Assembly: GCA_019671135.1 (NCBI GenBank)
Contig: JAHRHY010000002.1
Location: 1,612,001 to 1,676,000 of the forward strand
DNA: 64,000 nucleotides
Reading direction: 5' to 3'
From: Linnemannia hyalina
Taxonomy: Eukaryota > Mortierellomycota > Mortierellomycetes > Mortierellales > Mortierellaceae
In this document: piece after piece, positions 8,768 to 63,433 of the stretch
How positions within the stretch are numbered: position 1 is the first letter of the stretch
Layout: every line of letters starts with the position of its first letter
Translations under genes and position numbers: made by a program
Notes under the pieces: model-generated
What the model was told of the DNA's origin: nothing
What the model saw: only the letters and a program-made list of their open reading frames with translations
Databases searched by the model: none

Positions 8768-10045
8768 CTACTTGTCTACTGGATGCGTCCTGTTAAGGTC
8801 AGAAAATAGTTTACGTCTAAGGATGGAGTAATCGCGACGATTATGAAACTTCTTCTCCTTGACCCTATCGTAATAACGCAGGGACTTGTACATGGAGACA
8901 TCGGACTTGTACGTCAAAAACTGGCGTAGATCGTCCAAAAAGATGGCGTTGACCTTATAAACCTCTTCCTTGGGGACGAGAATCCTCTTGTATTTAAACA
9001 CATCGTCCGGAGTGGAATGAGTCGCGAAGTCGAAATCCTTAGTCGGAGGTCCCTTCTTGTAGTCGGTCTCAGGATAGGTATGAAGCTTGTCACCGAACAT
9101 CGAGGTCCAACCAGGTTTCTTCTCGAGCCTCTCATTCAAGTACAAACGACTGACCAGGACGATCGCGAATCGGGGCGAGACGACGAAAAAATTGTGGAAC
9201 CAGATGCCAGGCTGACCTTCCCAAGCACCAAAACCACCCGCGGATAGGATAAATTCCGACCCTGTCTCTGCTTGCCAGATGCAAGCAATAGTTGAAGTCA
9301 TCAAGCCGCCGAAGTCCTCCAGTTCAGAAGCATGAATCGGTCCCAGGTATGGACCTAAAAGCGCAGCAGGTCTCTTTGACTCGACTCTCGCTGCGATAGC
9401 TTTGTCATACTCTGTTATGATGTCCTTGACGGAGGCTTCGATGAGCCACTTGAGATTCTCGAACCAGACTGTCGGAACGTTTAAGAACCTGTTGTACTCC
9501 ATGTGCCTTCTGATTGAGTACGCGGTGAGGAAGTCAAAATTCTGGTTGAAATACTGGCTCCTGCGGGCGTCACTACGGTATGCCATAACAACTAGAAACT
9601 TTTTCATATCCCCGAGTTGGGTTCGGGTCAACGAAAGGTCTTTTTCCTCATTCCAAATCTTTCGGATAAACGCAGCAGAAGTGCTCTCGTGTTTGGCAAG
9701 GAGCTTCTCAAACTTCATGCAATCGGCCTCGGTGACATCTCGGTACATGTCCTCGGCACCGTACGCTCGAGAGACGTTGGTCGGGTTCGTGGTGTGGTCG
9801 TCTAATCGGTATACATTGATATCGTATATGGGCCGCACTTTGCGCCTGCGCTTGCTTGGACTTCCTCGCTTGAACCATGAGAGACCTGGGTTTGACGTGT
9901 CCGTAGTGAACTCGTTGTTGTCAAGCGAGAAGTTGTCCGCAAACGTCTTGAGAATGAACCTTGGTATATAATGGTGAAACTGAGTTTGTGTCATGCTCTG
10001 TTTCGAGAAGGATGTTAATAATGTCAGGTCTAGGCTATCGACCAA
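8768..10045 (-). CDS. DUF4238-family protein
   Basis: A single uninterrupted exon of 425 codons, unusual beside the intron-rich neighbours. Near the N-terminus FHHYIPRFILKTFA is the hallmark of DUF4238 (HHY-P-x-FLLKxF). A Tyr/Arg-rich middle follows (DMKKFLVVMAYRSDARR), typical of the family, whose molecular function is unknown. Length is at the upper end for the family. Translation may begin at the first ATG or at the Met 17 codons later (position 9994), directly before TQTQFHHY; the latter gives a more family-like N-terminus. No signal peptide or membrane span is seen. Lack of introns and the wide bacterial distribution of the family make horizontal acquisition possible but not shown. Confidence 0.75.
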   Translation of the reverse strand: MVDSLDLTLLTSFSKQSMTQTQFHHYIPRFILKTFADNFSLDNNEFTTDTSNPGLSWFKRGSPSKRRRKVRPIYDINVYRLDDHTTNPTNVSRAYGAEDMYRDVTEADCMKFEKLLAKHESTSAAFIRKIWNEEKDLSLTRTQLGDMKKFLVVMAYRSDARRSQYFNQNFDFLTAYSIRRHMEYNRFLNVPTVWFENLKWLIEASVKDIITEYDKAIAARVESKRPAALLGPYLGPIHASELEDFGGLMTSTIACIWQAETGSEFILSAGGFGAWEGQPGIWFHNFFVVSPRFAIVLVSRLYLNERLEKKPGWTSMFGDKLHTYPETDYKKGPPTKDFDFATHSTPDDVFKYKRILVPKEEVYKVNAIFLDDLRQFLTYKSDVSMYKSLRYYDRVKEKKFHNRRDYSILRRKLFSDLNRTHPVDK

Positions 10046-10570
10046 AGTTTAAGATGGCGTGCCTCAGGGATACAAAATTCGGATTATATATGTACCTTGA
10101 GCTTCTGGTGGTTGTGATAAAGAAGGTGGAGAGGAAAAAAAAGACAGGGCAGAAGTGGGAGTGATAAGTGTGTTGTTGAAAATTTAGTCTAAGAAGGGCA
10201 TGTTGACCTTTCTCAGGGTAGAGTCGGGATAGAGAATGGAGAGCAAGGATAAAAAGGGCAGGGATAAAGAATGGGTGCAGACGAAGTCACCAGATGAGGG
10301 GACCCATGGGCTATATATGCTTGGGTGGCAATGCTAGCTTAATTACTTTGGAGAGTCAACCGATCACGCCAAAGTCGACCGATCGCTTGCAGGCACACTT
10401 GATCCTATTGTACAACGCGACAATGTACGGGATTGAGAAAGAAAGTAGTGCTCGCATTCGAGCAGGCAAGAGTGAAACATTAGGCATAAAAACCTAAATA
10501 CAAATACGAGTCCTATAGAACCACAAACCATGACGCGCGAATAGAGCGCTTTTAGGCACGTGTTGAAACT
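10046..10570. other. Intergenic DNA
   Basis: Promoter side of the DUF4238 gene. No gene, RNA or clear repeat was found apart from the start of the dispersed repeat at the right end. Confidence 0.4.
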
Positions 10571-40253: not shown

Positions 40254-42995
40254 TTAATCTTCTTCATCGGGCTTGGGGGCAGTCTTGATAGAAATGTTTC
40301 CCATATCAAACACCTCATAATCTGCAGGGTAGACACCCTTGGTTAACTTCTTCTGAGAAGCAACGACGATCTGGTAAGTACCGCTGGGCACCGTCACGGG
40401 CGCGAGCGTTGGGTCTGCAGCGGTGATCACCTGGCCCTGCCAAGTCCAGCGCGAGAACATCAATTTGCCGTGGAAGCTCTGGTTGTTGACACGACCAGCC
40501 CATCCGAACGCGCGGCCAAGGTCGCTACTGAACAGGAATCCGACAAACTTCTTCTTGCTGTCAAACACACGGATCGTGAAATCTGGGGTGTGCGAACCTA
40601 GACGCGATACGACGACGGGGAGGGTTTCAGCGTTCTCGGGGTCGGTCAAATCGAAGGTGGTGTTGGCGGGGATCGCGCTCACCTGCCAGTCCTTCTGGGA
40701 CATAAGATCGGGGAATCCTTGCGCGGTATCTTGCATAGGAACCTTGGAAACGTCACCCTTGAGGCCAGTGTAAGGGACATGAACGGGGATGCCGCTCTTG
40801 GAGTTGGGGGTGGCAATAACGTATCCAGAGTAGATAGGGAACTCGCTGGCCTTTCCTTTCTTGGGTTCCTTGAACTTCAAGGTAATCTTGACGGTCTTTC
40901 CAGCGGGGATCTTGACTTTGTTGGTAGAGAAAGAGACTGTGGCATAGTCGGCTTCGATGACGGGGGTTCCCAGAGGGAAGGTGTTGTTGGCGTTGTACGA
41001 ATTCAAAGCATCAGCGGCAGTGTGCGAGAGGGTGTAGGTCTCGGTGTGCTTGCCGTGGTTCTTGATCGATATTTTGACGCTCTTCTTGAAGTGCTTCGAA
41101 TCCAGGAGATCAATGTGATCGGGGGAGATGGAGGTTGTTGTCATGATGGCGCTAAGGACGTTAATCAATCCAGCACCCTGTTTGGCGGCAGAGGCCTTGG
41201 TCTTGGAGCCATGGTTGGAGGAAATGGTGGCAGTATTCTTGAAGACCTTGCGGATCTCATCGCCATGGGGCTTGGCATTTTTGGCCTGCATATACAAGGC
41301 GTGGGCGCCAGCGATATAGGGTGAAGCCATGGAGGTACCAGAGAGGACGGTATAGCCGCCATCGGCAAGAGTGTAGGTTGATAAGATGTTACCACCGGGA
41401 GCGGCAAGATCAGGCTTGGAGCGGAGCTCACCATCGAGACCGAAGGAAGAGAACACTGAGGGAGATCCACCATTCTCGACGGTGAAAGTAGAAGGGCCTT
41501 TGCTCCAAGTAATGCGCGACTTCGCGTTCTTCTTCCAGACGGCAATCATTTTTTCGCCTGCTCCATGCTCGATCGAAGCCATAGGGTAATTGTAGCTGCC
41601 ACCCATAGTGGCGATTCCGGCGGGGGTTGTCTGGGTGAGGATGGCGGCTGCACCGGCGTTCTTGGCGTTGACACCACGTCCAGACAAGCAGCGACTTTCA
41701 TCACCATAGGCAAGGACTACCTTGCCCTTGACATCGATGCCATTGTAGATCTCTTCGTCACATCCGTCAGAGAGTGAGCCATCTTTCTCAAAGATAGGGA
41801 CAAGAGTGGCGTTGGCTGGCAGCTTGATGGCCATATTCCAGGCGTCAGAGGGAGCATATGGGTGCTTAACACCTCCATAGGTGAAGGAGTTGTAGAAGCC
41901 GTAGGCGTTGTCGAACGAGGCAACAGATGTACCGAGGTCGCCGAGACCGGTGTCAGCGACCATCCAAACACCATCGGTACCTTCATTACCAGCACCAGCG
42001 GCCAAGGCCATACCACGGGCAACCAGCTTGTCAGCAAGAATAGCGGTAGGGTTGGACTTGTAGGAGGAGCTACCGCCGAGAGACATGTTGATGACCTGGG
42101 TCATGGATGGAAAAAACAGAGAGCGTGAGTAGGGTGGTCTCATTCGCACGTACAAAACGATTCAGACATACTAAAATATCCAGGAACTCACATCCATGCC
42201 TTCATTGAAGGCCAGCTCCATGGCGGCGAGAATAACATCATCTGCAGAGGTACCGTAGCATCCAAAGACTCTGTAGGCACCGATGGTGACTTCAGGGGCG
42301 ACTCCAACAAAGGGCTGTGGGGGCTTGGGGGAGACCTTGATATTCAAGGCGTTACCACCAATGATACCAGCCACATGAGAACCGTGGCCGTTGCAATCCA
42401 TGGGGTCCCCGCCAGGCTTGGGAGTGTTGGATCCATTGTAATCATCGCCGACAAAATCCCAACCGTACTTGACACGGCAGTTCTTGCCATTGCGAGCGAA
42501 GCACCCCTCATTGGCGCCAGGGGCGGCGAAGGCAGGATGTTTGTAGTCAACACCAGTATCGATGATACCAATTTTGATGCCCTTTCCAGTTAGCTTGTGC
42601 TTCTTGTGGAGGACATCCACACCGGTCATACGGTGAAACGAAACAACCTCGGGGTCGGTGGGCTTCTTCGTGGACTTGTTGACCTTGGGGATCTTGTGAA
42701 GGGTGACGCGCCAGACATTCTTGATACCAGGGATCTTGGCCAAGGCATCGCCTTCGTGGCCTGACTTGACGGTCAGGGCGGCACCATTAAAGATGTTGTA
42801 CTCATTGCGGACCTTGTAGTCGACCTTGTTGGCCTTGAGGGAGTCGTGGGCAGCATTGCGTCGGACACCATCGCTGTACTCGATGATATATGCGTTGGGA
42901 ATGAAATCAACCTTGCCCTCCTCGACGGGGTGGAACTTGCCTGCGGAGACAAGTGCAGCTGCTGCAAGAGCAGAGAGAATAGCAGTCAATTGCAT
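40254..42995 (-). CDS. Secreted subtilisin-like serine protease (S8 family, Vpr/C5a-peptidase type)
   Basis: Two exons (42192-42995 and 40254-42095) join at Asp-Val to 881 residues. MQLTAILSALAAAALVSAG is a signal peptide. Residues about 30-105 form an inhibitor I9 propeptide (IPNAYIIEYSDGV). The catalytic triad is visible: Asp in IKIGIIDTGVDYKHPAF, His in DCNGHGSHVAGIIGG and Ser in VLSGTSMASPYIAGAHALY; the oxyanion Asn is in LAAGAGNEG. A protease-associated insertion lies between His and Ser (GKVVLAYGDESRCLSGRG, AAAILTQ). After the catalytic domain comes a roughly 300-residue Fn3-like C-terminal region. It probably degrades external protein. The ATG is the only one giving a signal peptide. 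Confidence 0.93.
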
Positions 42996-43052
42996 AATGG
43001 TTGAGGAGCGGTATTAGATATAGAAGATGTGTGAGATGATGATGGTGAGGAG

Positions 43053-51636: not shown

Positions 51637-54358
51637 ACGTACTAGCGAATAAAAAAATAGCATATTTGGATGCACTGCTACTTGTCCCGGTCACCAACAA
51701 TCTTTGATGTTTTATGACAAAACCAAGACCTTGAGCCTTCTTCTCCGCGGCTGTGCAGAGAGGGTTGTGAAGGTGACCCTGCTGGTAGGACGAATAAAAA
51801 ATGGACTTGTTTATTTTTCGCAGAACATTTGGATCCATAATAGCCGTATCAGCCATAGTCGCTCACCAAGGCAGAATAAAGGTGAGCAAAAATTCTATCG
51901 AATGATCTTTTATTGCATATACGACACCTTAAAAACAGTTCTTCGCGTTGTTTACTGAGAGGAGACATCGAAGTAGAAATGTCGCTTTGAACCCTTGGCT
52001 GTCACAAGCCAATTATCTGACTTATCTGTCCGTTGCAGTGTTGCACTCTTTTCTATGAAAAGCCCAGTATTCTACTGAATTAAAAATATGATATATACGT
52101 GATAGAAGTTTTTAGGATCCTTGATTAGTCAGCAATCAATTTAGTAGTCCTGGTGGGATTCGATCCATGACCTGTGTGTGACCATCTCATGACAGTCATA
52201 TCAGAGTGGATACTCTGACATCCTCTTCCAACATGAACCAGCACATCCAATACAACAACCCTCGAGGTAATTACTACCGAGGACACTATTGAGCTTCAGA
52301 GGCACTTACCAAGAAGGCTACCGAGGTGGCCATTATGGCAATCACCAAGATAGTAACCATTGCCACCACAATCTTTACAGCCATTATTATCAATATTCCT
52401 GTTATGACCCCAACTACTACTACAACAACAATCCCTACCCACCCTATCAACAACATGCAGTAACAAACACGTTCTCCACCCAGCGCCGACAACTGGTGTC
52501 AAGGATGTCAGCCATCTGAGAAATACCTGAACCGCTCGCCAAATATCCGTGTGTTCCTATTACATTTGGATAGATTCACGTGATTGTGACTGGTATTCAA
52601 CCATGTCCAGTAGTCCCACAGTAATTGCATGGGTGATGTTGGGCCATGCTGCCCATGTTTGCTTGCCTCGCCAAGCCAAGATGGCACTGACGTCTATGTA
52701 AGATTGAAGGGGGTGATGGATCGGGACCCTCGAAGAAACGAGTATGAGAAGATGATGTTATCCTTGATGCGCATCGGCCGAAAGTTCGTGCAACAGCTGA
52801 ATATCGACAGAGATCACTAGAGGGGTAAGAAAAAAATGGCGAAGCTTGTTTGAATTAGCCATAGCACCTTTTATTTTTTTCGCCTTCCTTTCGTCATCAC
52901 TCACATTCGCCTTTTTTTTCACTCGCCATCCCATATCTCTCTACTTTCTTCTCTATTCTTTCTCTCTCGCTGTTCATTCATTCCAGCTTGTCATCCCGTT
53001 CTCATTCCTCCCATTCTTGGAAGGAACAACTCTGGCAACCTCGTTTTTTCTGAGGTAATCGCACTCCTACATACAGACGTTCATTGTCGACCTACCATCG
53101 AGTTGTGAATCACCTTCATTTGTCAGTCTTTATTGTCCACCCCACTCCTCATTTGCACAGGACGAGTTTGTTGTCGTGACCAAAACGACAACGACGTAGC
53201 TACCCCAGTGCCTATTGTATGGAGTGCTGTGTCGACGCGTGTCGTGTGCTGGCCTATTGCTTTTATTCCAAGTCTCCGATGTCTCACACGCTTTAATTTA
53301 CTCACATATGCGTCTAGCAGCAGAGGAGCTCCGCAACCGTCGCCTAAGTCGACTTCCTTACCTTTTCGAGACACAAACTAACTGCCTGTCAACCGACTAA
53401 GTGTAATGCGTTGCTGCTACCAAGACACGGCCAAATATCACTGGAAGAAAGTGTCTAATCGTTCGTGGATTAACATAGGTCTCACTTGCTCCTAACTATC
53501 AGTGTAGTGGACATCCTCCACTGGACCTGCCCAACAAAAAAAAACATCCCAGTATTTCCATTCCAGGTAAAGTACATACAGATTAAGTAGACTACCTTTC
53601 TTTACCTTGCTTTCGATCCATTGTCTGATCACAGACCGAACACCATTATTCCCTTAGCCTTTTTTCCGACTAGTTGTAGTCGACGTCCTGCTGAGCCACG
53701 ATTTTGTACCCATCCCTGACCCGAATGTCTACCCAAGTGCATCACGACAGACCTACTAGGTAGGCAAAGTGGAATCATTGCGAGCCATCGTGAAATATTT
53801 GTCAAGGCATTTATGCATAACAACTTACCAGTTATCGCAACTAGTCCTCCTACCTACAAAGAATCATTTTTTCACCCCCAAGCCCAATATTACCCGCAAT
53901 TTGCAAGGAATATCCAGACGAAGGTACTGCAACTGCATTTCATATGCAAAAATAGAGAATGTACAAGTCTTGCCCAACGTAGCTAACTATTTTCATCATT
54001 AACTCAATAGACTTCTTACTCGTTCCAACAATCGAATATCTTCGACTTGAACAGTCTCTTGGAGTCCGTAAAGATGTCAGAGGTATGAATTTGTTAGTCT
54101 CCTGGTCACAACGTCTTCATCTCGCACACAAACGCTTTGTTTACAATGCTTTTAATTTTATCCGCGTGGTTATTTAGTTAACACAATCGGACCTTACATC
54201 GTGCAAGCTCATCTCTCGCATTTTGACTCAGCCAGGCTCGGTAGATCTTTTTTTGCCATCAAAGTAGGGCATACGATTTACGATGTTATTTACGATCGTA
54301 CGAATTTGAACGCACTATTAACTGCAGGTTTGCTCGCTTCTATTATAGTATCGGACGT
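51637..54358. other. Long intergenic region
   Basis: No supported gene over 2.7 kb. A Tyr/Asn/His-rich frame at 52289-52519 and an in-frame-interrupted MNQHIQYNNPRGNYYRGHY start at 52234 suggest a decayed low-complexity gene. A box-B-like 'ggatcgaatccca' is on the minus strand near 52150. A fragment near 51984 ('gtcgctttgaacccttggctg') matches the dispersed repeat at 60.38 kb. 'atgtcagag' followed by 'gtatga' at 54074 could be an upstream mini-exon of the next gene, but no in-frame join was found. Confidence 0.4.
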
Positions 54359-57300
54359 ATGCCTTCCTATACTTCGGAAACTGCGTCAACCACGTCGCCA
54401 ACTCCTCTTTCCATCCACTTGGAGCCTGAGCAGCGCCATCTGTCTCTAAGCGCAACCTTCGCGATCCCGAACACTGAGTTTCAGTCGGTCAAGGACGAAG
54501 AGCCCAGTCGTGTGTCATCTGAAGGGGCGCGACTTACTGAGCAATCGAACATACAGACGGCGTATCTTTCTATAACATCGAGATCTACCTCCGAGTACCC
54601 TCTTCAGACATCCGCCATCGATTTTATCCGTGTCAACCAGGCGAAAACACCTACTGATACTGGCGATTCGTCAGTGGAAAATGGCCACCATCCTCCAGCT
54701 GAACATTGCTACGAGTCCACCGTCTCAGACGACAAGGCTCTTGCCAACATGATGGCCACACACTTTCGCGCCACCACCGCCTTCAAGAACGCCTGCAGGC
54801 CTACAATCAAACCTCAAGTTCCAATGACAGGCCTAAACGATATCACGTCCACCCCGCAGCTTGTTTATTGCATTACTTTGTTGCTCAACAACTCCGAATC
54901 AGTACTCCATGGCGAAAGCGTAAAGAGGCCTGTTGATTTGAGTAAGAGGGAGGGCAGATGGCTGCGAGGTGCGAGGGAGGATCCAGAGATACAGAAATAC
55001 CTTTGTTCGCTGACGTCGATGATGGTGTGGGCATTTGTCGATGCCCGTTCCCAGTGCCCTGATCTCACTGCCGAGATAGTACTCCTTGGTCCTGTACTCA
55101 ACCGCGACGATTATCACACCCTGCTCTCCCACTTTATCAAGTCTCTCAACCATGCACGCTGGCAAAACATCGAATACCTCCGGGGGATGATTCGTTTGGT
55201 CCAGTCTGCCTCTCCTGGGGTCCTTGCAGACGACGACGTGGACAAGATTCTGACGGCCATTCGGGTACATTTAGGGATAACGACGAAAGACTATCACCAC
55301 TTGGTCTTTGCGGCCACGAAGGTCTTGGGAGTGATGGCGAGCGGCATAGCCAAGGACTTGGATCGACAGCGAGATTACCGACCTCTTTTGGATGTTCTGC
55401 ATGCCACAAGCTGCAAGGACAGATCGCTCGAGTTTCAAGTCGAATGTGCCCGTCAGGCCTGTCTGTATCTCTCCGCTGACGAGACTCCTTTGCGAAAGGT
55501 CCTGTGCTCTGCCCACCTGGCCACAACTGACGTCCCTATGATCGATGAAGTATCTACGTTGGATGTGCAATCTGTCATCGCCGCGGTGGAGCATCTTCGT
55601 CATGTATCAAGTACCTCCGCGATTGATGTTGACGTTGTCATAACCGAAGTCAATAGAGCGCGTGCGGGGGTCATAGCTGGTAGCGACGCAAAGGTTGTCA
55701 AGGAGGCCGGCCATATCAGACAAAAAGAGGCTTGGTATCCTGCCCTGCAAGCAGCGGAGACATTCGTCCAGCATGGCCGACTGGTTGAGTTCAGTCAGCT
55801 AGTTTGTGACGCCTCGTGTCGTTATGATTTGAACTTTCAACGTGGTGCCTGTCAGATCATTGGAGAGATTGCCATCGACCCTCTTTGGACCGTTGCCAGC
55901 AGGCGGAGCGCTATTGATTGTCTCCTTGGGCTGTATCATTTGCACGGGGCCGACATCGATTTCGATACGGGTCACAACATCAGACCATCGATTGTCGCCA
56001 TCCTCCGCCATATTTCCAACATGAAGCAGTCCGACATCAAGAAGTACGCCAGCACGCTACTGAGCGACTTGCCAGGGAAAGACTCTTGCAACCTCCAGAT
56101 CTTTCACCCATGGATGACCCGATTACCGTTGCCTCCATTTTACCGTCTTCTCCGTCGCGCTCAAGCCATTCCTCAAGAGGAGACCCAACTGAGGTATCTG
56201 CGACGTATGCGACTTCAGGAATGCCTCCAGCCCATATATGTCACCCTTCAAGCGACATCAAGCTGTGGAGCCTCCAGAGATACACCTTGTTCATTAATAA
56301 CCACCATGCAGGGATTCTTGAAATCGGATCGCCTCGTGTATCTTCTTTTGGGGGAATCTGGGTCAGGAAAAACGTCATCGTGCCGACGCCTGGAGCGGGA
56401 ACTCTGGGACGACTACAATAACGGCGGCATGATCCCAATATACATCGACTTGTCTTACATTGACACCCCAGAGCACAAATTGATCGAAACACAGCTACAC
56501 ACCCACGGCTTTTCGGACGATGAGATCCAGCAACTGTTGCAGCATCGACAATTTGTGATCATCTGTGATGGTTATGATGTACGCCGCCTCACGACAAACC
56601 TCTTCAAGACCAATCAACTAGGCCAATGGGACGTCAAGATGATCATCAACTGCAGGAGCACTTTCCTCCCTAGCGACTACCAAGGTCGATTTCGCCCTCA
56701 TGGACCCGACCACTATTTCGACAAATCGGCGAACCTTTACGAGGAGTCAACCATTGCGTCATTATCCGAGAGCGACATCAAGGAATTTATCCAGCAGTAT
56801 GTCCGAGATCTACCCGCGCAGGAGCCCTTGGGCAGGCTGCATCTCTCGATTGCAGATGACTACTGGAACGCCTTGGCCGCCATACCCAATATGGTGAACG
56901 TGGTCGAGAACCCGTTTCTATTGACGCTAGCGCTGAGGAATCTCCCGTCATTGTCGCACGATGCTTTGGATCCCGCCAGGAGAGAGACCACCCGAGATCA
57001 ACTCTACAACAACTTTGTCAACAGCTGGATCGACGCCAACAAAAAGCGACTTGATTCGACTATACTCAGTCAGGAATCTTCCGACGCCTATGATCTCTTA
57101 TGTGACCCCAACTTTCGATGGTGTGTAAGAGACTTCTTGAAGAGGTTTGCGACAGCGATGCGGAAACATCAGAAGAACCGCCTAGTTGTGAAATACACAG
57201 AGCGTGAGGACAAGAATTCCTGGAAGGCGGAGTTTCTCGGAAGAGCTATCGAGGCGACACTTCTGCGCGAGGCCAGTCCCCTCACAAAAACAGGGAATCA

Positions 57301-59945
57301 CCACAGATTTCTCTATGACTCTTTGTTCGTCTTCTTCCGGTTTCTGGCAGCATATGACCCCTTTGAAGACGATGACAGCCCCAACAACAACGATGACGAT
57401 GACTCCTTTGACGGTCAAGACGGCTTCCACGACGATGGGGACTTGACTGACGGCAACACTGGTTCGAGTGGCGGAAGTGACGGCTCGGCTGACGATAACA
57501 ACCGCTCAACTGGCGATAGCGACCGCTCGTCTGGTGGAAGCGATAGCCCAACTGATGGAAATGATAACCCAACTGGCGGAAACGATGGCTCAACTGGTGG
57601 GAACGATGGCCCAACTGGCGGAAACGATGGTTCGACTGGTGGAAATTATAGCTCAACTGGTGGAAGCGATGACCCAACTGGCGACAGAGTCGATTTTGGT
57701 GACAGCCATGGCGGTACTAGGAATGGCAGCAGTTCTGGCGGAGGCAAGGACGCTTCTGAGGAGGACAAGGGCGGCTCTCGCCGATCCAAGGACGTTTCTC
57801 GCTCCAAGAAGAAAAGCAGGTCCAATAAGCCTCTTCTTTCCACATTATTCTCGGATGTGAACTATCTCGATGATCTGGAAGTATTGGAGTTGCTGGTCGA
57901 GCGCGCCCAAGTTGATTCACGCATGAGGAAATGTCTTTTCACGGTCATCGAACAGTCCAAGTTGTCGACTGCTCCCAGTCTTGCCGCAGCTAACTCCATC
58001 ACCATCCTGTTCAAGGCCGGAGAGCGATTCCTCAATATCGATCTGAATGACGTACGGATACCGGGGAACTACATCTTGAGGGAGGCCCTGGAGTTCATGG
58101 AGACTGATCTCGTGCACATGCTTTGTCGACTCGCTATGCCGATCCTCAAACACTCTACCACTACAATTATGACTCCACTTGCCGATGTCAACTTCGACCC
58201 CACAACCCATGGTCCCATTGCCCCACCCCCGACACTCGTCATCCTCGAATCCCAGCAACAGATCGGATCAGAATACACGAGCAAGATGACTGCACTTGCC
58301 GATGTCAACTTCGACCCCACAACCCATGGTCCCATTGCCCCACCCCCGACACTCGTCATCCTCGAATCCCAGCAACAGATCGGATCAGAAGACACGAGTA
58401 AGATGACTGTCTCTGCCCGGCATCTCCAACACCATGCGCTGGTGCCCGAGTTTGTGTCTGAATATACCCTCGGCGACGAGCTCGGTTATGGCGGATCTTC
58501 AATTGTCGTATCTGCCACGCGCAACTCGGACCAAAAGGAGGTCGCGGTCAAGTTCATTTTCCGGGAAAAGGTCACCGTTCATGGGTGGGTCAAGGATCCC
58601 GAGCTTGGTGTGATCCCCGTGGAGATTTATATCCTCCGGAATGTTGCCCATGCTAATATCATTGGGTTCTTGAATGTCTACCAAGACCACAAGTACTTTT
58701 ACTTGGTCATGGAGATGCACGGTACTCCCTGGTCCGCCATCAATCCGCTGTTGAATAACATGCAGGGATCGATGATGGGCACGGTGGTTCAGGCGACCAT
58801 AAACCAAAGAAATGTCGCTGTTGCTGCTGTAGACCCTTCTGCTACCAGATCCACGTCAACTATAAGTTCAGGATCGTACCAGGACATCTCTATATCATCC
58901 TCCTCGTCTTCCTTATACCAGGCGACAGGCAGTAGCGACAAGGCACACCAACCTGCTAATTCAGCCCTTCTTGCCCACCGCGCCTCATGTGATCTCTTTG
59001 CGTGTGTCGAGTACCACTCCAGGTTCACCGAGACGCAGGCCCGTGTGATCTTCAAGCAAATTGTCGAGTGTGTTCACTACCTCAACTCGCGCGGAATCTG
59101 CCACCGCGACATCAAGGACGAGAACTTTGTCATCGACAATGACCTTCGGGTCAAGTTGATCGACTTTGGATCGGCTGTGATCATCCCCAAACCCCAGGGC
59201 AAGCTATTTGATCGCTACTATGGGACCATTGACTGTAAGCATCTCTCGTTGCATGCACATTGTCCTCATTTTTTTGTGTTCGCTCACCTTCCTTCTCCCT
59301 CCTGCCCCTTCACTCCGTTCTTTCTTTCTTTCTTTCCCTAATATCTGCGTGCCTGTCTGCCTGTGTTCTTGGCTGACCCCCTTGACCTCGGCAATAATGC
59401 ATTTATTGCAGCACCATTGAAGAGAGCCATAAATTCGTTCCTCGAATGTGGTCTAACGCATCCATCCATCCCTCCCTTCTTTCTCGCTTCTTTCTTCCCT
59501 CCCATAGATGCCTCCCCTGAGATCCTGAGGGGCGAGAAATACAGGGCAGAGGCAGCGGAGATCTGGTCTCTTGGCATCCTCTTCTACATCATCCTCTACG
59601 GCGAAGTGCCATTCAGTGACCCCGTCCAGGCCATCTCTGGACCTTACACCCTGCCCCGCGTAAGGTCTTCAGGCGAGTGCTTACACTTGCTCAACTGGAT
59701 GTTGGCCAAGAAGCCCGAACGGCGTGCGACCATTGAGGACGTTGCCAACCATCCATGGATCGTCGGAGTAAGCATACCCAATGTGTCGTGAATCTAGAAC
59801 GAGGCAAATGGTGATTGATCTTTCAATCCTGGCAATGCAGATGCAGAGGCAAAGGCTAGAAAAGGGCAGGGAAAGGGTTGAAAATGGTGATCAGGGTCCA
59901 GACCAAGTATTTTTCAGAGTACTTACTAAGTACTATCTAAAATAA
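54359..59945 (+). CDS. NACHT NTPase fused to a PAS-kinase-like Ser/Thr protein kinase
   Basis: A giant first exon (54359-59234) splices at a Tyr codon to 59508-59767 and probably 59841-59945, giving about 1746 residues (1719 if the last intron is not used). Residues 1-130 are Ser/Thr-rich. Residues 130-650 are helical, repeat-like. The NACHT domain has Walker A GESGSGKTS (about 664), Walker B FVIICDGYD (about 730) and INCRS sensor (about 763). After a Gly/Asp/Ser linker (1000-1120), AAANSITILFKAGERF resembles the post-NACHT segment of Mortierella-type NACHT proteins. A 39-residue unit is then duplicated (1273-1351). The kinase begins at YTLGDELGYGGSSIVV, with VAVKF Lys, HRDIKDEN and LIDFGS, GTIDYASPEIL and EIWSLGILFYI, closest in feel to PAS kinase. 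All catalytic residues are present. Predicted role: nucleotide-gated signalling or immunity-like sensor with its own kinase output. Confidence 0.85.
57440..57700 (+). repeat. Coding minisatellite in the NACHT-kinase linker
   Basis: Imperfect tandem units of about 21-24 nt ('actggcggaaacgatggctc'-type) encode GGNDGSTGGND/PTGGNDGST iterations. The same units read in all three frames, so length can change without stops. Confidence 0.85.
58177..58410 (+). repeat. 117-bp in-frame tandem duplication
   Basis: Units 58177-58293 and 58294-58410 encode two copies of ADVNFDPTTHGPIAPPPTLV and the following ILESQQQIGSE(Y/D)TSKMT. Near-identity implies a recent event. It lies directly before the kinase domain. 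Confidence 0.95.
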
Positions 59946-60390: not shown

Positions 60391-60597
60391 AACTCTTGGC
60401 TGCCATTATTCTTCCTTGCCAGGGACTCTATCTGTGTGTATCTTTCTTTTATTATTAGCCGTGACTTCCGAAAAAAAAAAAAAAAAAAATGAAAAAAATG
60501 AAAACAAAATAAAGGGGACTCTAGGTGATCTGTTGATCTCTATCTTTCTTTTTCACGGCCGGAACACTATCCCCGAATCTTTGAACGATCCTCCCCC

Positions 60598-61569
60598 ATG
60601 TCCCATGCATCCAACCTCACGGCCCCCGATGTCGATATCGACGTTCACACGACCCTTCGCCTTATTCAGGAGCAAATGCAGCAACAACAGGTCTTTATGC
60701 AGCAACAGCAGGCCCTTTTACAGCAGCAGCAAAACAGGATCCAACAACTGGAAGCCGAATCCATTGAGCAGGACGGCAAACTGGTCTACAGGAACCCTCG
60801 AGCGACCCTCATCAAGCTTCGCCAGGACATTCTCAAGGTTTACCCAGCCATCGGCGAACCCAAGTTCTTCTACTCGGAACTACCCAAGAACCACAACGTT
60901 TTCAACTGGAACGACTACCACTACACTGAGGGTATGGATTACAAGCCTCCCCCGGTTCTGCAGCACTCCGAGGTTACCCTCACAGACGCGGCTAAGCGAC
61001 ACGAACGCGATTTGGTATCGATCCAAGGATTTTTGGCTCAATCGACCCGGTTCTTCGACACTTTCGCTTTCGAAGTCCTTGAAGATGGAGACGATCAATC
61101 GGAGCTCGGCAAGAAGATACTCGGTCTCCTCAACACGGTACGCATATCAACAGCCCACGACGCTTCCAGGATCAGTCGGATGCGAGAGAACCTTTACCTC
61201 GACGAACTCGGCATCAAGCATGGCAACGACAAGGAGGAATCCCTTTTCACTTTGGAATCACTGGCTGCCAAAAAAGCAGCCGCTGATCTGGTTCGGAAGA
61301 CATATAAGAAGTTCGAGCCTCCAAAGGACAAGAACAAAAAACCTGACAACAAATCCAGCAAGGACAATTCAGGATCAGGCGACAAACGCAAGGACCAACA
61401 GTTCGGCAAGTCGCAACATAAAGACAAGTCAGGATACAAATCCGACAACGGCAAGTCGGGTTACAAGTCGGACGGAGGCAAGTCTGGTGGCAAGCCTCGG
61501 AACAAATCTGGTAGCGGACAAGGCAGGAAGCAGCCAGACAAGGGAAACGAGGGAGAGAAGTCGGATTAG
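60598..61569 (+). CDS. DIRS gag-like protein
   Basis: An open frame of 323 residues. The N-terminal Gln-rich segment (QQQQVFMQQQQALLQQQQNR) is a predicted coiled coil for assembly. A helical middle follows, and the tail is strongly basic, with Lys/Ser/Gly repeats of the type KSGYKSDNGKSGYKSDGGKS that would bind RNA. No CCHC zinc knuckle. Position just before the reverse transcriptase fits a structural protein. The frame is intact. Confidence 0.75.
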   Translation: MSHASNLTAPDVDIDVHTTLRLIQEQMQQQQVFMQQQQALLQQQQNRIQQLEAESIEQDGKLVYRNPRATLIKLRQDILKVYPAIGEPKFFYSELPKNHNVFNWNDYHYTEGMDYKPPPVLQHSEVTLTDAAKRHERDLVSIQGFLAQSTRFFDTFAFEVLEDGDDQSELGKKILGLLNTVRISTAHDASRISRMRENLYLDELGIKHGNDKEESLFTLESLAAKKAAADLVRKTYKKFEPPKDKNKKPDNKSSKDNSGSGDKRKDQQFGKSQHKDKSGYKSDNGKSGYKSDGGKSGGKPRNKSGSGQGRKQPDKGNEGEKSD

Positions 61570-61610
61570 TAGGAGGTCGACTTCTCCAGTTCTAGGAAGC
61601 ATGGAGGGAG

Positions 61611-63433
61611 ATGACGGATTCGACCTGGGTCAATAACATCATCAAGTCAGGCTACAGTATCATATTCAACCGACCTCCGCCACTACGCCTACCACCTCAG
61701 TACGATCCGTTCATTTCGCCGGAGGAACGCACAGCCATCGATACAGAGGTCCGTTCCTTATTACAAAAAAGGGCTATCGAAGGCTGCAGCGGGAAGGGAT
61801 TTTACAGTCGTATCTTCACGATTCCCAAGAAGACAGGAGACTTACGCCCAGTATTAAACTTACGTCCACTCAATCAGTTCTTGACAGCACCAAAATTCAA
61901 GATGGAGACCCTCAGCAACATTTGCCGGATGCTCAGACCAGGCGACTGGCTTACGAGTATCGACCTAAGCGACGCCTTCCTGCACGTGGCAGTCCATCCG
62001 GCATCTCGAAAGTACCTCCGCTTCAGATGGGGAGCGGCATCATACCAGTTCCGAACCCTGCCTTTCGGACTGTCACTTTCCCCTTTCATCTTCACAAAGA
62101 TCATCCGTCCAATTCTCAAGTGGGCGAGGGAGAAGGGGATCAGGATCTCGGCATATCTCGACGACATCCTCATCGCAGCCAGGACCAAGGAGGAGGCCAA
62201 GGAGCACACTCGTCTGGTTCGGGAACAACTAGAACGACTGGGTTTCCTCATCAAGGACACCAAGTCAACACTCGACCCTACCCAATGTATCGACCATCTT
62301 GGGTTCAGGGTCAACACCGCCGACATGACACTCTCAGTACCAAGATCAAAGGTCCGCGACCTGCGCAGGGAGGCGGAGAAGATGATCAGGGCAGGGACCA
62401 TCCAACTTCGGCGGCTGGCGGCATTTATCGGGAAGGCGATCGCGATGACGGTGGCAGTCTTTCCGGCTCGACTGAGGACGAGGAATCTGATTCAGGTTCA
62501 GAATGCTGCTTTGGCCAACGAATGCAAGTGGACGGACCCAGTTACATTGGATACGGCGGCACTGGAGAATCTCAGCTGGTGGAGATCTCATCTGTCGGAA
62601 TGGAACGGTCAAGGATTCTTGCCTCAGAGAACGGAGGTCGACGCGTACACCGATGCCTCGGAGGAGGCATGGGGGATTGTGATCGAGGGCAAGGAGATGT
62701 CCAGGACATGGAGTGCATTGGAGCAACCACACCACATCAACTGGAAGGAGCTACGGGTTATTGGCACTTGGTCCACCTTCCAGAAACGATCGGGAAGACA
62801 ATTCATGTTATTTGCGACAACATGACAACCATCGCTCAGATCAACAGATTCGGCGGGACGAGGTCTCAACCGCTACTCGATCTGACGACCAGGATATGGA
62901 ACCACTGCATGGAGACGGGCACGAGACTCAAGACGACATACGTTCCCTCACAGTTCAATCCAGCAGATGCACCGTCCAGGAGGATGACGACGCAACTGGA
63001 GTGGTCGATCGACAAGTCATTCTTTCAACACCTCGAGTCGATATGGGGTCAACACCACATCGACCTATTCGCAACAGCAACGAACGCCAAAGTTCCTCGA
63101 TACATTTCATGGAAGCGAGAGGAAACCGCCTGGAGCCAGGACGCATTCAACAGCTGCTGGTCCAACATGAACAGAGTCTATGCGTGTCCGCCGTGGTCTC
63201 TGATCAGCAAAGTCCTCCAGAAGATCAAGCAGGACAAGGTCAAGGCGACGGTCATCACTCCATTCTGGACAAGCGCGCCTTGGTACCCTACGATCACAGC
63301 CATGTCGGTCGACAAGCCTCTACGGATCCTGAGGAGCCAAGTCTTGCCAGCTCCGGGGAACAGTCCACACATCCTCGAGAGGAATCCAATGTGGTCGCTC
63401 TCAGCCTGGAACGTCGACGGCAGCAAGCAGTAG
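61611..63433 (+). pseudogene. DIRS reverse transcriptase-RNase H with frameshift
   Basis: The first frame (61611-62825) encodes the reverse transcriptase: FYSRIFTIPKKTGDLRPVLN, SIDLSDAFLHVAVHP, LPFGLSLSPFIF and the catalytic AYLDDILIA. The RNase H domain starts with VDAYTDASEEAWGIV. Near 62783-62790 the frame is lost: one A appears missing from an A run after TFQK. The rest of RNase H (TIHVICDNMTTIAQINRFGG, VPSQFNPADAPSR) and the C-terminal DIRS region (HIDLFATATNAKVPRYISW) continue in another frame to a TAG at 63431-63433. Both halves are otherwise open, so the lesion is young, or is read through by slippage. Confidence 0.85.

Follow-up and report, generated by a model that had tools for sequence, protein, structure and literature searches.

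Does the long open frame on the forward strand of a stretch of the Linnemannia hyalina genome encode one receptor that ends in a protein kinase, and if so, where did the kinase come from and what is it doing there? The stretch, referred to here as the window, comprises 64,000 nucleotides (nt) of contig C12 of the 51.5-Mb L. hyalina assembly, and positions follow its numbering. The locus is best described as one gene for one fused NOD-like receptor (NLR) of Mortierellomycota, in which a duplicate of a host kinase replaces the usual C-terminal repeats and would act as a sensor or bait integrated in the receptor, a reading to which we give about an even chance. The gene lies in an open frame of 1698 codons (54245–59341, +) that runs without a stop from the NACHT region into the kinase, as the preliminary description of the locus had claimed in proposing a single long exon. 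The frame from the Met codon at 54359, joined to 59508–59791, encodes a protein of 1719 residues, and excision of 59235–59507 reproduces GenBank protein KI688_005902 exactly from MPSYTSE to its end, which bears out the later spliced kinase exon that had also been proposed. Of the extent first assigned to the gene (54359–59945), the Met frame at 54359 stands and both ends shift: the stop codon occupies 59789–59791, and homology to L. elongata adds two further 5′ exons. The elements of the gene are as follows.

54011–54082 (+): 5′ coding exon A, found by tblastn with the N-terminus of the L. elongata protein P0031 (68% identity over 25 residues), flanked by caatag before and gtatga after
54178–54263 (+): 5′ coding exon B, 68% identical to P0031 over 31 residues, with an in-frame splice to exon C
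54349–59234 (+): main exon C, an open frame holding the ARM region, NACHT, linker, adaptor and first part of the kinase
54965–55864 (+): ARM-like helical region (Pfam ARM_5, residues 203–502; 86.8 bits, E 1.7e-24)
56339–56581 (+): NACHT core (Pfam stretch, residues 661–741) with Walker A and Walker B, from Pfam and motifs
57401–57700 (+): Gly/Asn/Asp/Ser-rich repeat linker, with 21-bp tandem units at 57479–57683
57806–58141 (+): adaptor, located before the C-terminal module in this NLR family, with 118 matches in the L. hyalina genome, that of the window included
58142–58168 (+): 27-nt junction encoding ILKHSTTTI, with weak likeness to the 5′ untranslated region (UTR) of the parent kinase gene
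58169–58402 (+): N-terminal tail of the kinase in two tandem copies of 39 residues (117 bp) each, both opening at the former start codon
58403–59234 (+): protein kinase, part in the first kinase exon, with an altered P-loop (58484–58507), VAVK, HRDIKDEN and DFG
59235–59507 (+): intron in the kinase part, at a position identical in both stand-alone kinase paralogs
59508–59791 (+): kinase exon D, from SPE to the stop (Pkinase, 53 bits); the joined protein equals KI688_005902

Exon A does not open the gene; the start codon is placed further upstream. The splice of exon B to exon C yields LFLPSNIGRMPSY, the counterpart of which in P0031 is LFLPSSIGRM. The GenBank model of KI688_005902 opens instead with a first exon at 52233–52457, for which no counterpart was found among the L. 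elongata N-termini compared. An assembly or annotation artefact is hardly credible as the source of this arrangement. It would draw on the fact that the genome was annotated with Funannotate, after HGAP4 assembly of PacBio reads, with RNA evidence not mentioned (PMC8444964), and on two other models of the family, P0035 and P0126, that look merged; however, the join needs no intron, an identical junction occurs in proteins of two other genomes, and the DNA is unbroken inside a 3.8-Mb contig of the PacBio assembly, with no trace of the break between the halves that had been named as a reason to give up the fusion. That annotation had joined two separate genes, one for NACHT and one for the kinase, was likewise ruled out, there being no stop, no intron and no promoter space between them.

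A protein search was performed in which 7999 candidates were scored, 165 passed E 1e-10 and 120 were listed, other species being known from their protein models. ARM_5 and a kinase occur together in three proteins among the matches listed: that of L. hyalina, the partial BGX30_011562 of Mortierella sp. GBA39 and EC957_001492 of M. hygrophila. The search for the same architecture in Mortierellomycota, as had been advised, thus returned two more fused proteins. The L. hyalina and GBA39 proteins are 90% identical in the NLR half and 87% identical in the kinase, the halves diverging alike, and the M. hygrophila protein matches that of L. hyalina in two NLR pieces (91% and 86%) and in the kinase (87%). 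The junction KHSTTTI/MT is common to all three, and presence in three genomes, a shared junction and a single kinase clade point to conservation of the fusion by descent. Because it is found again in two related fungi, the fusion is probably a working part, and the frame, the splice and the junction shared by three protein sets sustain the earlier view that it is real.

The homology to P0031 ends at fusion residue 1261 (58141), 27 nt 5′ of the kinase start codon, and since only these 27 nt lie between P0031-like sequence and the kinase ATG, the parent promoter was probably not carried along. When the stretch before the start codon was compared with the 5′UTRs of the stand-alone kinases, 29 of 2000 shuffles were as good for the closer parent on contig C14 and 329 of 1000 for the other paralog, so that the likeness is suggestive only of a 5′UTR remnant. 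Counted by eye, there are two tail units in L. hyalina, five in GBA39 and two in M. hygrophila, and their third-codon-position value, a measure of base composition by codon position, is coding-like in L. hyalina (0.60, against 0.46–0.50 in the flanks). In the GBA39 linker (P0003), one of the five 39-residue units is shortened and the frame is always kept. All three fused proteins have a Met at the places that correspond to 58169 and 58403, which would suit a kinase made separately, from an internal promoter and a short mRNA starting at one of these codons, with the NLR as an inert or rarely read leader. This is unlikely, given that P0031-like sequence up to 27 nt before the ATG leaves no room for the parent promoter and that, with no stop between the halves, a transcript of the NLR would continue into the kinase; moreover, the joined frame has been maintained with two, five and two tail units, and the NLR half has kept its 90% identity between L. 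hyalina and GBA39.

Walker A (GESGSGKTS) begins at residue 665 and Walker B (FVIICDGYD) at residue 732, numbered from Met 54359; the NACHT NTPase that had been described on the basis of these motifs is thus retained, though its Pfam score is below the cut-off. Homology to paralogs extends to about residue 1000 or beyond, and the closest of them, on C44, exceeds the Pfam NACHT cut-off with 38.1 bits. Its Walker motifs, together with plain homology to paralogs above the Pfam NACHT cut-off, class the fusion protein as a NACHT NTPase. Searched against PDB sequences, the NACHT region gave three weak matches, to replication factor C (E 0.022–0.027). The long helical N-terminus is shared with NLRs of Mortierellomycetes, in which a helical N-terminal domain (NLR_Helical) is described in the available part of one report (PMC9815663); the likeness is one of description.

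The closest relatives of the NLR part are P0035 (75% identity) and P0031 (72%) of L. elongata, which are 80% identical to each other. Beyond the point that corresponds to fusion residue 1261, P0031, a partial GenBank model, continues with a second NACHT (62.3 bits) and then pentapeptide repeats. Among 19 paralogs with loci in the L. hyalina genome, inspected by eye, the adaptor is followed by pentapeptide and WD40 repeats in 18, by leucine-rich repeats (LRRs) in one and by a kinase in none. No C-terminal repeat (sensor) domain was found in the fusion protein, where the adaptor leads into the kinase, and the kinase therefore stands where repeats usually follow, as had been noted. A kinase scan of the genome (155 matches, with 117 of 473 candidates scored) was compared with the adaptor matches, and by eye no other kinase was seen within 10 kb downstream of an adaptor match on the same strand among the matches listed.

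A NACHT tree of 29 rows was built, from which M. hygrophila was left out for its broken core, and the L. hyalina paralog L026 and some second NACHTs because they failed a motif and length filter. The two L. elongata relatives group with the fusion (94/97), and a protein of L. zychae, whose WD40 repeats were confirmed by domain scan, joins the group (99/99) on a flagged long branch that makes its placement unsure. A neighbouring clade (97/96) contains LRR and WD40 receptors, and the remaining L. hyalina paralogs in the tree carry WD40. Tree and alignment thus show that the receptor clade of the fusion has varying C-termini at one place after the adaptor. P0035 has a NACHT followed by sequence that matches two other L. 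hyalina loci, and the model looks merged; the end of its tail is presumably the start of a PKA-type kinase, in a GenBank model unconfirmed in DNA. The GenBank model of P0126 of L. elongata joins NACHT to a homeodomain (53.7 bits) and, like P0035, could be either a merged model or a further integration. Both tails, from GenBank models unchecked in DNA, would extend the module variation. It is possible, and is offered tentatively, that a Linnemannia NLR clade has swapped its C-terminal module repeatedly after one adaptor as a counterpart of the 'major integration clade' of grasses, the modules being WD40, LRR, a second NACHT and a PASK-like kinase, with a PKA-type kinase and a homeodomain gene as possible additions. 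If that were true, copies of host signalling proteins would become receptor ends.

At least 100 NACHT matches (100 of 156 candidates scored) and 118 adaptor matches were recorded across the L. hyalina genome, many of them clustered on C6, C7, C12, C33 and C50, and many NACHT/adaptor loci are, by eye, single frames of 1700–1900 codons. One receptor of the neighbouring clade (L038 2221–5745 (-), C19:166 kb) has the adaptor followed by a series of LRRs and no WD40.

Two close relatives of the fused kinase are present in the genome, both stand-alone on C14, with 80% (401 codons) and 67% (378 codons) identity over the aligned part. The closer, KI688_006770 (C14:521966; 402 residues), represents the parent lineage, and DNA similarity to its gene spans its start codon to just before its stop. 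The introns of the fused and parent kinases occupy the same position and their sequences are not alignable. Because the intron was kept at the same place, the kinase is taken to have been copied as DNA and not as mRNA, and a retrogene origin is ruled out. In a first kinase tree, whose 33 rows comprise 29 selected among 120 listed matches, the second L. hyalina paralog and the three fused kinases, the fused kinases form one clade (100/100) within the parent-kinase clade of Linnemannia and its close kin (100/99). Which kinase is their exact sister is not settled by this tree, and its four rows from outside Mortierellomycota are flagged as long branches. The fused kinase is thus a duplicate of another host gene, standing as a non-canonical domain in an NLR.

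The kinase had been thought to derive from a PAS-kinase gene, and among solved structures PASK (PDB 3dls) is indeed its nearest match by sequence (E 1.8e-37). A second tree, built from 25 chosen rows with no outgroup and so without a fixed root, has a 99/99 branch that parts the fused kinases and those of parent type from animal PASK, yeast PSK, related fungal kinases and a kinase of L. hyalina's own on C11; the filamentous-fungal kinases carry the label PSK as assigned in the analysis. No Pfam match to a PAS domain was found in the fused proteins or in the five parent-type kinases scanned (P0127, P0131, P0207, P0017 and P0022). On the PASK/PSK side, PAS was found in two yeast proteins, once above and once below the cut-off, and three filamentous-fungal proteins show DUF7891 in its place. 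The C11 kinase (L039 875–2917 (+), C11:987 kb), which is of PASK/PSK type, shows a kinase and only a sub-cut-off DUF7891 in its N-terminal part, and a PAS domain read there by eye was dropped. Because the C11 kinase and the three filamentous-fungal kinases show DUF7891 and not PAS, presence of PAS alone does not separate the groups, and it is the tree that does so. PAS kinases, which include that nearest solved structure, form a separate clade; the 99/99 split, with the fused kinase outside the PASK/PSK side and a stand-alone parent without a PAS match in KI688_006770, rules out derivation from a PASK/PSK gene itself, and the nesting with PAS kinase for which a tree had been advised as a check did not appear. 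The parent kinase would instead belong to a fungal sister group of PASK/PSK.

From the second tail unit onward, the fused and parent kinases differ over 402 codons by a synonymous rate (dS) of 0.88 and a nonsynonymous rate (dN) of 0.095 (dN/dS 0.108), a pattern that shows constraint on the fused kinase. When the second paralog serves as outgroup, the fused branch carries 43 changes and the parent branch 7 (chi-square 25.9), which gives the fused branch a rough dN/dS of about 0.19 if dN is shared by the 43:7 ratio and dS is halved. KI688_006770 therefore shares intron position and 80% identity with the fused kinase and differs in being unfused, in its intact P-loop and in its 7 changes against 43. 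Invariant sites were defined over 26 stand-alone Mortierellomycota kinases, counting the rows that cover a site (at least 80%); changes at these sites number 20 of 195 in L. hyalina, 10 of 194 in GBA39 and 17 of 194 in M. hygrophila, against a median of 1 and a maximum of 9 in the 26 stand-alone kinases, each left out in turn. The P-loop reads GYGGSSIV in the fused L. hyalina kinase and GSGGFGFV in the parent, 4 of 10 P-loop sites being changed, an enrichment that is significant in L. hyalina only (Fisher p 0.011). Its third glycine, which is also invariant in four outgroup kinases, is replaced by Ser in all three fused copies, and the glycine-rich GxGxxG pattern of active kinases is thus absent from them.

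The Lys, Glu, HRD, DFG and SPE (APE-type) residues, all of which have catalytic roles in protein kinases, are kept in all three fused copies. The kinase had been described as having every catalytic element; this holds for VAVK, HRDIKDEN, DFG and SPE, and is too strong because the glycine-rich loop is altered. Retention of the core residues, retention of the first two P-loop glycines and a dN/dS of 0.108 across the kinase would agree with a kinase that acts as output, in which NACHT activation or oligomerisation gathers the kinase domains and starts phosphorylation, so that one molecule is both sensor and effector, as had been suggested at first. Kinases can remain active without the third P-loop glycine. 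We regard the output role, the main rival of the bait reading, as rather doubtful, however, as that glycine is gone from all three copies and 4 of 10 P-loop sites are changed in L. hyalina, the kinase evolves fast at sites that are otherwise invariant, and it occupies the end where related receptors bear repeats. The P-loop change, the fast evolution and the position fit a sensor or bait somewhat better.

The bait role is proposed because the kinase sits in the repeat position, has 43 changes against 7, is altered at invariant sites and has lost the third P-loop glycine in all three copies, and because there is a precedent in the CHK2-like C-terminal kinases of Sordariales NLRs. In the available part of that study, 12 Sordariales NLRs with PKinase are reported, nine of them C-terminal and CHK2-like, and are proposed to be integrated decoys (PMC12258605). 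As far as that part goes, the NLRs of Chaetomiaceae and Podosporaceae resemble the fusion in being of NACHT type, with a kinase at the C-terminus that was duplicated from one of the host, in what was apparently one integration kept in related species; they differ in phylum and in that their kinase is CHK2/PRD-4-like, whereas that of L. hyalina comes from a PASK-like sister group (PMC12258605). The C-terminal domain of NLRs is described as an autoinhibitory, ligand-binding end, and PKinase is listed among annotated fungal NLR domains, in the available part of another study (PMC4986451). Under the bait reading, a factor of foreign or endobacterial origin that acts on the host kinase family, by binding or by modification, would touch the fused copy too, this contact would release the NACHT switch and the N-terminal helical (ARM) part would relay the signal onward; the fused kinase may retain some activity and need not.

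Several observations weigh against a working receptor with a bait. Pfam NACHT scores 20.0 bits in L. hyalina, under the cut-off of 26.7, and 20.8 bits, also under it, in M. hygrophila, and no Pfam NACHT match was obtained for GBA39 at E 0.001; the profile check of both halves proposed earlier was hence clear for the kinase (Pkinase, 110 bits in the first kinase exon and 53 in the second) and sub-cut-off for NACHT. The M. hygrophila model has a late start and lacks about 167 residues (roughly 812–978 in GenBank numbering), the gap being filled by sequence that matches another frame of the L. hyalina window, and its NACHT may be broken or misannotated and the gene decaying there. P-loop enrichment is not significant in GBA39 (p 0.42) or M. 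hygrophila (p 1.0), and a pure bait would not need the K, E, HRD, DFG and SPE residues retained in all three copies. In the nine Sordariales proteins the canonical three-part NLR is complete, whereas the L. hyalina fusion is without repeats, as far as the available part of that study allows comparison (PMC12258605). The missing NACHT-region residues and other-frame sequence of M. hygrophila, together with the P-loop changes of L. hyalina, would also suit a fusion that arose by chance, has no selected function as such and is on its way to loss, but this is very unlikely with a dN/dS of 0.108 at a dS of 0.88 and with a frame open through NLR and kinase alike in the DNA of L. hyalina and in the protein model of GBA39.

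Plant NLRs with integrated domains, among them the major integration clade of grasses, offer a further parallel in the available part of their description: a host domain is fused to an NLR, and one receptor clade bears differing modules after one conserved segment (PMC5819176). Unlike these, as described in that part, the L. hyalina fusion uses NACHT and its module replaces the C-terminal repeats (PMC5819176). A literature search over titles and the beginnings of abstracts, in part over the top of longer hit lists and with subscription papers and preprints outside its scope, found no paper on a NACHT–kinase fusion in Mortierellomycota. The general kind is already known; as far as that search shows, the novelty lies in the source of the kinase, the absence of repeats and the phylum.

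Elsewhere in the window, a reverse transcriptase (RVT_1, 93.9 bits) is encoded among the open reading frames (ORFs) at 60529–63433 (+), and an ORF that overlaps matches a Dam-type methyltransferase (32.3 bits); we take this combination to be typical of DIRS-type retroelements. The first ORF of this element begins about 0.75 kb past the stop of the fusion gene and has no Pfam match. A subtilase-type protease lies in two ORFs at 40254–43013 (-), and a DUF4238 protein at 8768–10048 (-).

The fusion is a further case, in a different phylum, of a fungal NLR with a host kinase integrated at its C-terminal end, and convergent kinase integration in fungal immunity thereby becomes testable. The genome retains the parent kinase, and related receptors end as is usual for them, so that the conditions before and after integration are directly comparable. 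The case also points to one host kinase family that may be targeted by microbes living with or inside Mortierellaceae.

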